From Haloarchaeobius amylolyticus (GTDB lineage: Archaea; Halobacteriota; Halobacteria; Halobacteriales; Natrialbaceae), in NCBI RefSeq assembly GCF_026616195.1, contig NZ_JANHDH010000001.1, positions 868,001 to 932,000 of the forward strand: DNA of 64,000 bases. Direction: 5' to 3'. Under the pieces are notes generated by a model. The model was not told where the DNA came from, did not search any database, and saw only the letters and a list, made by a program, of their open reading frames with translations. Below are positions 48,998-52,795 of the stretch, piece by piece (the stretch's first letter is position 1; each line of letters starts with the position of its first letter). Both the position numbers and the translations under genes were made by a program.

Positions 48998-49825
48998 TCA
49001 GTCGTCCTGTGCCGGCCGGTCGGTCGCGGTCTCGCTCGCGGCATCGTCTGCCGTTTCGCTCCCGTCTTCGCGGTCTGCGGGGTCACGCGGGACGCCGGCG
49101 AGTTCGGGGTGGTTCGTCGCGCGCCGGAAGATGCCGAGCAGGGAGCGCGCCTCGCGCTGGGTCGGGTGCGCCCGGCCGAAGACGCGCCGGGCCATCCGGA
49201 GGGTCTTCGCGCGCTTCTCCTCGGGGTGGTCGATGCTGTCGAGCAGGTCGTCGAACTGGTCGTACAGTCGGTCGAGCATCGCCTCCTCGGCGCGCTCGTG
49301 CTCGCGGTCCGGCAGCTGGGTCTCCTCGACGGTCAGCCCGCGCAGCTCGTAGAGCGTGATGGTCGCGGCCTGCCCGAGGTTGAGGACCGGGTAGTCGTCG
49401 CTGGCCGGGATCGAGCAGACGGCGTCGAGCTTCGAGAGCTCCTCGTTGGTCAGGCCGTCGGCCTCGCGCCCGAAGACGAGACAGCTGTCGGCCTCCAGGC
49501 CGGCGAGGTCCTCCGCGAGTTCGTCCGGCGTGAAGAAGGGGAACCGGACGTGCTTGCGGCAGTCCTCGTTGGTCGTGGCGGTCAGCCCCACCGTGTAGTA
49601 GTTCTCGACGATGTCGTCGAAGTCGACGACCTGCGCGTTCGCGAGGACGTCCTCGCGGGCGCGCCCGGCGAAGCCCCAGGCCTCGCCGTGTTCCTCCATG
49701 ACGCCCGCCGGCGGGTCGACGAGCAGCAACTCGGAGAGCCCGAAGTTCTTCATCGCCCGGGCGATGGTGCCGACGTTGCCCGGCGTCTTGCTGTCGACGA
49801 CGGCGACTGCTGGCGTGCTCATCAC
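48998..49825 (-). CDS. trmJ: TrmJ-like tRNA 2'-O-methyltransferase (SPOUT family)
   Basis: This 275-residue SpoU/TrmJ-family protein opens with VAVVDSKTPGNVGTIARAMK (family motif 'P.N.G..aRa..nfG'). The motifs SCLVFGREADGLTNEELSKL and VLNLGQAATITLYELRG follow and form the SAM-binding trefoil knot. TrmJ methylates the 2'-O of nucleotide 32 in tRNAs. A C-terminal helical region with an Arg-rich piece (RKTLRMARRVFGRAHPTQRE, roughly) and an acidic tail follow. Its ATG overlaps the preceding gene's stop by 4 nt, so both are one transcription unit. Confidence 0.88.
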   Translation of the reverse strand: MMSTPAVAVVDSKTPGNVGTIARAMKNFGLSELLLVDPPAGVMEEHGEAWGFAGRAREDVLANAQVVDFDDIVENYYTVGLTATTNEDCRKHVRFPFFTPDELAEDLAGLEADSCLVFGREADGLTNEELSKLDAVCSIPASDDYPVLNLGQAATITLYELRGLTVEETQLPDREHERAEEAMLDRLYDQFDDLLDSIDHPEEKRAKTLRMARRVFGRAHPTQREARSLLGIFRRATNHPELAGVPRDPADREDGSETADDAASETATDRPAQDD

Positions 49826-50370: not shown

Positions 50371-50583
50371 ACCCGGTGGTATCGGGTCTGTGGGTAAAAA
50401 CGACGCGTCTTCCGGTGTGGTGGGTCGGGGCAGGACGTTCTGATGTCGGTCTGGACGCTGCCACGGATTCCGACGGCACGACGACCTCCCCCAGCCGACC
50501 AGACCACCGAACACCACCAGAACTCCCGGCAGCCAGCGCGGGGAACAGGCCGTTTTTCACGATTCAGCCCCCCATCTCTGGTA

Positions 50584-51780
50584 ATGAGAGACGTAGACGC
50601 CGCCGGGCTCGGTATCGGGGACGGCTACCCGACCCGGGTCATGGGGGTGCTGAACGTGAGTTCGGAATCACCGTACAAGCCGAGCGTCTTCGACGATGCG
50701 GGCGACGCGGCCGCGTACGTGGACGAGGAACTCATCGGCGAGGGCGCGGACATCGTGGACGTGGGTCTCGAGTCCGCGAACAAGAAGTTCGACGTGCTCT
50801 CCGCCGAGCAGGAACTCGACCGGCTGGACGTCGCCCTCGAGACCATCGAGTCAACGTCGGGCGACGCGGTCTGGTCCATCGAGACGCGCTACCACGAGGT
50901 CGCCGAGGCCGCCATCGAGGGCGGCTTCGACATGGTGAACGACATCGCCGGCTTCGCCGACCCCGAGATGCCCCGCGTCTGTGAGGAGTACGACGTGGCA
51001 GTGGGGAAGATGGCGAGCCCACCGGACCTGACACGACCGGGGGCGGTCGAGGAGACGCCGTGGGCCGAGCGCAAGGGCGCCGAGTGGGCCGAGTCCGCGG
51101 ACTACGTCGACCAGGTGTACGAGGCGCTGAAGCAGCACGGTCTGACGGACAAGACCATCGTCGACCCGGCCTTCGGCGGCTGGTCGGAGGCCCAGACGAC
51201 CGAGCAGGACCGCGAGACCCTTCGACGGCTCCGAGAGTTCCGCGGGCTGGGCCAGCCCATCCTCGTCTCCATCAACCGGAAGAACTTCCTGCGCGAGCTG
51301 ACCGGCCGCGACACCGAGCAGGCGCTCGCGGTCTCGCTGGCCGCGACCTCGATGGCCATCGAGCGCGGCGCACACGTCGTCCGGACCCACGACGTGCGCG
51401 AGACGGTCGACGCCTGCGCCGTCGGCGACGCCTTCACGCCCGACCGGCTCCGCGGCGGCTCCGGGGACGTGACCGTCGAGGAACTCGACGTCCAGACCGA
51501 GGATGACGTGGCCCGCCACGTCGAGCGTCTCGACACCGACGACGTGGCGGCGGACGCGACCCGGGCCGTGCTCGAGGTGTCCGGGCTCACCACGGCCCAG
51601 GCGGAATCGCTGGCTGCGGCCGCGTCTGACGCGGGCGCGGTCTTCGCGACCGGCGCGGGCGACGGCCGGGGTGGCCTGCTCGTCGGCAGTTACCGTTGCT
51701 TGCGGAGACTGGCCGCGACAGCCCCTGAGGACGGCGAGCTGTCGGCTGTCACCGACGAGGTAGAATCGCTCGTCGGCTGA
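50584..51780 (+). CDS. folP: Dihydropteroate synthase-like protein with C-terminal extension
   Basis: This 398-residue TIM-barrel pterin-binding protein has MGVLNVSSESPYKPSVF (family motif 'gilNvTpDSF'), EGADIVDVGLESANKKFD, FDMVNDIAGFADPEM, and SINRKNFLRELTG (family 'SRK.f...l'). ERGAHVVRTHDVRETVDA ends the barrel. Several canonical residues differ: the DPGIGFGK phosphate loop appears as VDPAFGGWS, and the DSFSDGG loop is altered. The last ~120 residues are not part of a normal DHPS. With MptE next door, a role in pterin/folate synthesis is likely. Whether it is a true p-aminobenzoate-using enzyme is uncertain. Confidence 0.8.
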   Translation: MRDVDAAGLGIGDGYPTRVMGVLNVSSESPYKPSVFDDAGDAAAYVDEELIGEGADIVDVGLESANKKFDVLSAEQELDRLDVALETIESTSGDAVWSIETRYHEVAEAAIEGGFDMVNDIAGFADPEMPRVCEEYDVAVGKMASPPDLTRPGAVEETPWAERKGAEWAESADYVDQVYEALKQHGLTDKTIVDPAFGGWSEAQTTEQDRETLRRLREFRGLGQPILVSINRKNFLRELTGRDTEQALAVSLAATSMAIERGAHVVRTHDVRETVDACAVGDAFTPDRLRGGSGDVTVEELDVQTEDDVARHVERLDTDDVAADATRAVLEVSGLTTAQAESLAAAASDAGAVFATGAGDGRGGLLVGSYRCLRRLAATAPEDGELSAVTDEVESLVG

Positions 51781-51994
51781 GCGACGCCGGCTGCCACCCG
51801 TTGGACGGCCGACAGCCCGTAATCCCGTCATCGCGTCGTCGTCCGGCGATTCTCAGGCGGTGAAAACGTTGTTTCGAGGTGTATAAGGCCGTGTTATCCA
51901 GCGAATCTTCGAGCGCAAGAATGGTCGAAAGGTAGAGACGAACCCGGGTATCACCCTGGTTTCGACCCGATAACGACGGAGGAAAGAGAGAAAA

Positions 51995-52001
51995 CTTATA
52001 C
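51995..52001 (+). promoter_or_regulatory. Strong TATA box upstream of the mptE leader
   Basis: CTTATAC is preceded by an A/G-rich stretch (GAGAGAAAA) of the kind seen as BRE in haloarchaeal promoters. The predicted start is near 52023-52025. Confidence 0.65.
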
Positions 52002-52022
52002 CACGGCAGTATGAACGAACGG

Positions 52023-52081
52023 GTGGAAGCCGGAAGGGCCTCTCGGGTAGGGGTACCTTGTAAGAGGCAATTCCGGCCCAC
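52023..52081 (+). ncRNA. Structured leader or small RNA upstream of mptE
   Basis: The stem has three nested parts: GTGG/CCAC (52023-52026 with 52078-52081), an AA bulge, GCCGGAA/TTCCGGC (52029-52035 with 52071-52077), a symmetric GG/AA internal loop, and GCCTCT/AGAGGC (52038-52043 with 52063-52068). A 19-nt apical part can form a small AGG-GGTA-CCT hairpin. The 5' base of the stem coincides with the predicted transcript start, and mptE begins 40 nt after its 3' base. It could be a regulatory leader of mptE or a processed small RNA. Confidence 0.5.
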
Positions 52082-52120
52082 ACCAACGGTTATCTTGGAC
52101 ACAACCCGATAGCCACTGGT

Positions 52121-52795
52121 ATGGACTTCAGCGAGTTCGAATCCGTCTACGAGCGCATCCTCCGAGACTTCGGCTTCGACCGCGAAGGCGACGAGCGCGC
52201 CCGAGACGTTCTGCGCGAACTGACGACCTCGTTCGACGAGTCACGACTCTCGTCGCTGGCCCGCGAACGCGTGGCCATCTGCGGGGCGGCCCCGTCGCTG
52301 GCGGACGACCTCGCGAGCCTCGACGCGGACCGCATCGTCGCCGTCTCCTCGGCGGCCGCGGTCTGTCGGGACCACGGCCTCGATATCGACGTGTACGTGA
52401 CCGACCTCGACGCCGAGCCCGAACTCGCTGGGGTATTGAGCGCCGAGGGGATTCCGACCGTCGTCCACGCGCACGGGGACAACGTGGACGCAGTCCGGGA
52501 GCTGGTGCCGACGCTCACACAGGAGCACGTCCTGCCCACGACGCAGGCCGCACCCGTCGCTCACGTGCGGAACTACGGCGGGTTCACCGACGGGGACCGG
52601 GCGGCCTTCCTCGCGGACCACGTCGGGGCCGGCGAACTGGTCTTCCCGGGCTGGGACTTCGACGACCCGTCGGTGGGCGAGCTGAAACGGCAGAAACTGG
52701 AGTGGGCGGCGCGGTTGCTCTACTGGCTGGAACAGCGCCGCGGGGTGACGTTCGACGTGCTCGACGGGCGTCGTGACGGCTTAGAACTCCCCTAA
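52121..52795 (+). CDS. mptE: 6-hydroxymethyl-7,8-dihydropterin pyrophosphokinase, MptE-type
   Basis: This 224-residue DUF115-family protein is the archaeal counterpart of FolK, which pyrophosphorylates 6-hydroxymethyl-dihydropterin. Visible motifs are VAICGAAPSLADDLASL (family 'G.GPSL'), DIDVYVTDLDAEP, HAHGDNVDAVRELVP and NYGGFTDGDRAAF. The last has WAARLLYWLEQ as C-terminal helix. Placed directly after the DHPS-like gene, it marks a two-gene pterin cluster. Its transcript would have an unusually long, structured leader (about 97 nt) in a genome where most genes look leaderless, which suggests post-transcriptional control. Confidence 0.9.
   Translation: MDFSEFESVYERILRDFGFDREGDERARDVLRELTTSFDESRLSSLARERVAICGAAPSLADDLASLDADRIVAVSSAAAVCRDHGLDIDVYVTDLDAEPELAGVLSAEGIPTVVHAHGDNVDAVRELVPTLTQEHVLPTTQAAPVAHVRNYGGFTDGDRAAFLADHVGAGELVFPGWDFDDPSVGELKRQKLEWAARLLYWLEQRRGVTFDVLDGRRDGLELP

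Follow-up and report, generated by a model that had tools for sequence, protein, structure and literature searches.

Most haloarchaeal small RNAs are reported to be unconserved even between related species (PMC3956466, PMC5852579). The closest described counterparts of the RNA reported here are two catalogued RNAs, HVO_2908s and HM42_V. HVO_2908s is abundant and enriched in H. volcanii vesicles, and Halobacterium salinarum has a homologue, of high sequence identity, that is also enriched in vesicles; the study describing them (PMC10927574) predicted no function for any intergenic ncRNA and gave no structure, family or loop motif for HVO_2908s. HM42_V is an RNA-seq-verified RNA of 58 nt from H. 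mediterranei, located between HFX_2905 and HFX_2904 (folP), which was predicted from homology to an H. volcanii sRNA and is described by a table entry only (PMC5852579). Published support for a discrete transcript comes from Haloferax and Halobacterium (PMC5852579, PMC10927574).

The window (the whole 64,000-nt stretch of DNA that was analysed) contains a hairpin at 52023-52081 on the plus strand. It lies between folP (dihydropteroate synthase; 50443-51780, plus strand; TIGR01496 above cut-off, with a true start that may be internal) and mptE (6-hydroxymethylpterin diphosphokinase; 52121-52795, plus strand; Pfam PF01973, E = 4e-16), and farther upstream trmJ (48998-49825) and a small protein gene between trmJ and folP are encoded on the minus strand. 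The same gene order, trmJ-small gene-folP-RNA-mptE, is present in Haloferax, and HVO_2906 is a COG0565 methyltransferase (PMC2584109). Since HVO_2906 is trmJ, this gene order indicates that folP should be HVO_2908, the gene that HVO_2908s adjoins according to its locus number, and that the RNA should be HVO_2908s. Haloferax species share the folP-RNA-mptE arrangement, as do 37 of 40 loci from outside the window's own family, and the Haloferax hairpin found here is ~54 nt long, as compared with the 58 nt of HM42_V beside folP. From gene order and size, rather than from their published sequences, we infer that the hairpin RNA is HVO_2908s/HM42_V. H225.2R, hts10 and htsf359, the only well conserved RNAs among the deleted H. 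volcanii small RNAs (PMC3956466), were rejected as candidates because they carry other locus numbers.

The RNA is thus already catalogued, but its structure, its conservation across the order, its loop and its relatives appear to be undescribed in searchable open-access papers. The loop sequence was absent from the paper texts searched, in which its reverse complement alone occurred, in two unrelated papers. In contrast to most haloarchaeal small RNAs, the hairpin RNA is conserved in most of an order, is single-copy before mptE, has a near-invariant loop and belongs to no Rfam family. The comparisons establish, at the level of sequence, the elements of a small-RNA gene: a promoter, a covarying hairpin, a loop, a place before mptE and stand-alone hairpins elsewhere. 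We consider it probable that folP and mptE flank a haloarchaeal gene for a small non-coding RNA (HVO_2908s/HM42_V).

Structure and conservation of the hairpin

The initial annotation had described a 17-bp stem in three segments with an AA bulge and a GG/AA internal loop, and folding of the window sequence reproduced this stem exactly (4 + 7 + 6 bp). Helix P1a pairs GUGG (52023-52026) with CCAC (52078-52081) and is followed by the 2-nt AA bulge (52027-52028), which is flanked by G-C pairs. Helix P1b pairs GCCGGAA (52029-52035) with UUCCGGC (52071-52077) and is separated by the GG/AA internal loop (52036-37/52069-70) from helix P2, in which GCCUCU (52038-52043) pairs with AGAGGC (52063-52068); the 5' arms are all on the plus strand. 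The apical module, GGGUAGGGGUAC (52045-52056, plus strand), can fold as a 3-bp GUA/UAC helix closing a GGGG tetraloop. The 111-nt fold around the hairpin had a free energy of -48.2 kcal/mol (z = -3.1), which was equalled by 2 of 200 shuffles. The hairpin RNA at 52023-52081 is supported by this fold, by covariance-model matching and by covariation, with a 5' end predicted from TATA spacing. A 117-codon open reading frame runs antisense across the hairpin (51749-52102, minus strand) and gave no sign of being a gene. An exact 22-nt copy of the P2-loop region was also observed elsewhere in the window's own genome (G000:C1:1340108-1340129; L002, L199), lacking a clear promoter or a full hairpin.

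A DNA search with 51940-52125 produced matches in 121 of the 125 genomes of the window's own family. A covariance model (R1) was built from 34 relatives outside the window's genus, with the structure supplied for alignment; this genus-independent model recovered the window copy at 51.9 bits (E = 1.6e-12) and matched 210 of the 293 genomes of the haloarchaeal order. A second model (R2), built from 60 diverse sequences, one of them the window's, matched 248 of the 293 genomes at E up to 0.1, as compared with 287 in which mptE itself was detected. According to the match table, 233 of the R2 matches were strong (E below 1e-5) and 15 were weaker. Outside the order, matches were marginal only (best E = 8e-4, in another family), which were not counted as homologues.

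Covariation was evaluated on the 60-sequence alignment. Paired cells made up 95.3% of the total in this alignment, which was fitted to the model and so favours pairing, and slid versions of the pairing, used as a control, gave 24-42%. Double changes occurred in 13 of 19 pairs, a number that none of 500 shuffles equalled, and 124 double-change cells were observed against 45.5 in shuffles (0/500 reaching the observed value). Among relatives, double changes affected all four P1a pairs (88.9% of cells paired) and three of the six modelled pairs of P1b (98.6% of cells paired). The modelled pairs of P2 covary, one of them occurring as A-U 25, U-A 21, C-G 9 and G-C 1 times, and the double changes in P2 are evident by eye, as in the replacement of GCCUCC/GGAGGC by GGCAC/GUGCC. 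Compensatory changes in other haloarchaea had been proposed as a check on the stem and were thus found, and the stem, far from being absent upstream of mptE elsewhere, is conserved order-wide. These results confirmed the structured RNA more strongly than first claimed, the covariation of its pairs across the order being far beyond chance.

Promoter of the RNA and putative promoter of mptE

The small-RNA promoter (BRE + TATA; 51986-52002, plus strand; core CTTAT at 51995-51999) follows the consensus TAAGAGAAA[AG]CTTAT[AG]CC, which is nearly invariant among 113 loci. The CTTAT core of the window is 28 nt upstream of the stem, and the TATA-to-stem distance was 28 nt in 94 and 28-30 nt in 110 of the 113 loci. 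This fixed spacing supports the earlier proposal of an own promoter with a start at the stem base, because it matches the usual archaeal distance. The expected RNA would have its 5' end at ~52021-52025 and a length of about 58-75 nt. RNA polymerase would start at the stem base and make an RNA of ~60-75 nt consisting almost entirely of the hairpin, in which the stem would act as a scaffold and display the loop.

Linkage of the RNA to mptE is strict. At the 40 loci from other families, mptE was always downstream on the same strand and folP was upstream at 37; at the remaining three, which showed no folP nearby, the RNA was still beside mptE. Likewise, the RNA was directly upstream of mptE in 60 of 60 coordinate-compared genomes outside the window's family, a set that partly overlaps the 40 loci. 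The gap between the hairpin and mptE ranged from <15 nt to >200 nt. In most families a TTTATA, TTTATC, TTATTG or TTATCT box was found 3' of the hairpin, ~25-32 nt upstream of the mptE ATG, and where mptE is more distant, several genomes have a TATA-like box close to the gene start. The putative mptE TATA box of the window, the consensus match TTATCT (52090-52095, plus strand), lies 31 nt upstream of the mptE ATG (52121). An own TATA box ~25-32 nt before the ATG implies a leaderless mRNA, and these consensus boxes therefore argue that mptE is mainly leaderless and that the hairpin would not be part of its mRNA. Transcription of mptE would mostly use the gene's own promoter, which overlaps the 3' end of the RNA, so that the two units could interfere with one another or act in co-ordination. 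In many Natrialbaceae the mptE start is >130 nt past the loop and a weak box was all that was seen; in long-spacer members of this family (L011, L017, L020, L022, L025, L030, L032), a conserved ACANATACGACTCC-like motif was observed ~28 nt before the mptE ATG, possibly a shifted mptE promoter.

The initial annotation had read the hairpin as a structured leader or ncRNA immediately before mptE. In a cis-acting leader, transcription from the upstream promoter would continue into mptE under the control of a pterin, a folate or a protein bound to the loop. The constant position and orientation of the RNA directly upstream of mptE, its retention at the three loci without folP nearby, and the end of the Halorussus hairpin ~10-15 nt before the ATG are consistent with this reading. 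Where the spacing is this short (Halorussus, L140, L166-L170), a leader is possible, and Halorussus leaves no space for a separate mptE promoter. Against it stand the separate mptE TATA box in most families, the variable gap, the discrete RNA of 58 nt that was reported for H. mediterranei, and hairpins with the same loop that adjoin unrelated or convergent genes elsewhere. Searches of Rfam, at the gathering threshold and at E up to 1, returned nothing credible for the hairpin, in agreement with the earlier failure to recognise any riboswitch consensus. The pterin- or folate-responsive element suggested at first was not borne out by any known riboswitch model; THF riboswitches have the folate-pathway context in common with the hairpin, but with E values up to 1 admitted they matched it neither in sequence nor in structure. 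We therefore regard the cis-acting leader as unlikely. A cis role on mptE of some kind is still conceivable, because the linkage, which it would also account for, is strict and because the RNA overlaps the mptE promoter.

One promoter might alternatively give rise both to a processed or terminated small RNA and to a minor mptE 5' leader, with the same factor binding the loop in each. Both promoter geometries do exist, in different families, but the stand-alone copies require no mRNA, and we give this dual arrangement a rather small chance.

Stand-alone hairpins and the apical loop

Weak extra matches brought to light stand-alone hairpins elsewhere in haloarchaeal genomes, which combine the GGGUAGGGGUAC loop with different stems, an own TATA box ~25-30 nt upstream and a U-rich tail. 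A covariance model built from them (R3) gave one to four matches per genome throughout the sampled Haladaptatus-Halorussus family, several per genome being seen in Haladaptatus and Halorussus, and weaker matches in Halobacterium and Haloferacaceae. The collected copies represent five unrelated genomic neighbourhoods and one singleton, and the genes flanking them are mixed and often convergent. The locus set (L175, L179, L180, L182, L184-L198, L203-L207, L209-L263, L384-L412, L423, L425-L427) includes a minority of mptE-linked copies or chance matches. Covariation among the stand-alone hairpins was modest, with 10 double-change cells against 2.3 and few pair types. These same-loop hairpins in Haladaptatus, Halorussus and probably other haloarchaea are new here. 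Most carry a TATA box of the ACAAAG[CT]ATWTA or AGAAAGCTTTTA type, and some sit on plasmids.

The 12-base apical loop is near-invariant in all relatives and is thus the part of the hairpin under constraint. Its local fold recurred in all but one of the folded representative and stand-alone hairpins, and the GUA/UAC pairs within it are maintained, including one G-U and one U-G variant; in the Halobacterium copies the pairing is lengthened to GGGUA/UACCC. The 12-mer was counted 206 times in 117 genomes, against 70 reversed-control matches, with many extra copies that lack a stem and resemble coding sequence. In viral contigs, strict search patterns gave no or weak matches.

Because one loop sits on unrelated stems at unrelated loci, we infer a trans-acting small RNA family that may be recognised through the loop. 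The partner would be conserved and, judging from sequence comparison, more likely a protein than an antisense target, because the internal pairs of the loop are kept and no complementarity to rRNA stands out. More tentatively, and with somewhat less than an even chance in our estimation, many loci per genome may express minimal hairpins whose stems differ and whose GGGUAGGGGUAC tetraloop module is common, all read by one conserved protein. The mptE-linked, order-wide copy would then be the ancestral member of a previously unrecognised haloarchaeal RNA class. Because the loop recurs at unrelated loci, Haloferax volcanii and Halorussus offer systems in which a single binding partner can be sought directly.

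Base pairing of the loop with target mRNAs or rRNA, as in an antisense-type small RNA, would suit a near-invariant stretch of 12 nt that is single-stranded or weakly paired. However, the best complementarity between the loop and the rRNA operon was no better than that of shuffled controls and the GUA/UAC pairs inside the loop are kept, which makes an antisense role improbable.

A K-turn has a three-nt bulge followed by tandem G.A and A.G pairs, and an H/ACA guide RNA has a K-turn or K-loop, a guide pocket and an ACA ~14 nt from the target site. The K-turn (L7Ae) site suggested earlier does not hold, since the bulge is only 2 nt and flanked by G-C pairs and the tandem G.A is not kept, CG/GACC or AG/AC replacing the GG/AA internal loop in relatives. 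The short hairpin, whose stem is followed by an ACA in the window and in many relatives, recalls archaeal H/ACA and K-turn RNAs, but it has no K-turn or K-loop motif, its internal loop of ~2x2 to 2x4 forms no pseudouridylation guide pocket and the ACA is not conserved in other families, so that an H/ACA guide or L7Ae-binding K-turn RNA is scarcely credible.

Two further arrangements of loop hairpins were observed. One genome of another haloarchaeal family (L186, family f4) carries two near-identical loop hairpins with GTGGGCAGC...GCCCACC stems in tandem, ~1.3 kb apart. Halobacterium and its relatives (L215, L231, L411, L412, L425-L427) contain a second conserved hairpin; its promoter is GACAAGACATTTA and its apex GGGTA-GGGG-TACCC, and it could be the vesicle RNA H3.2.
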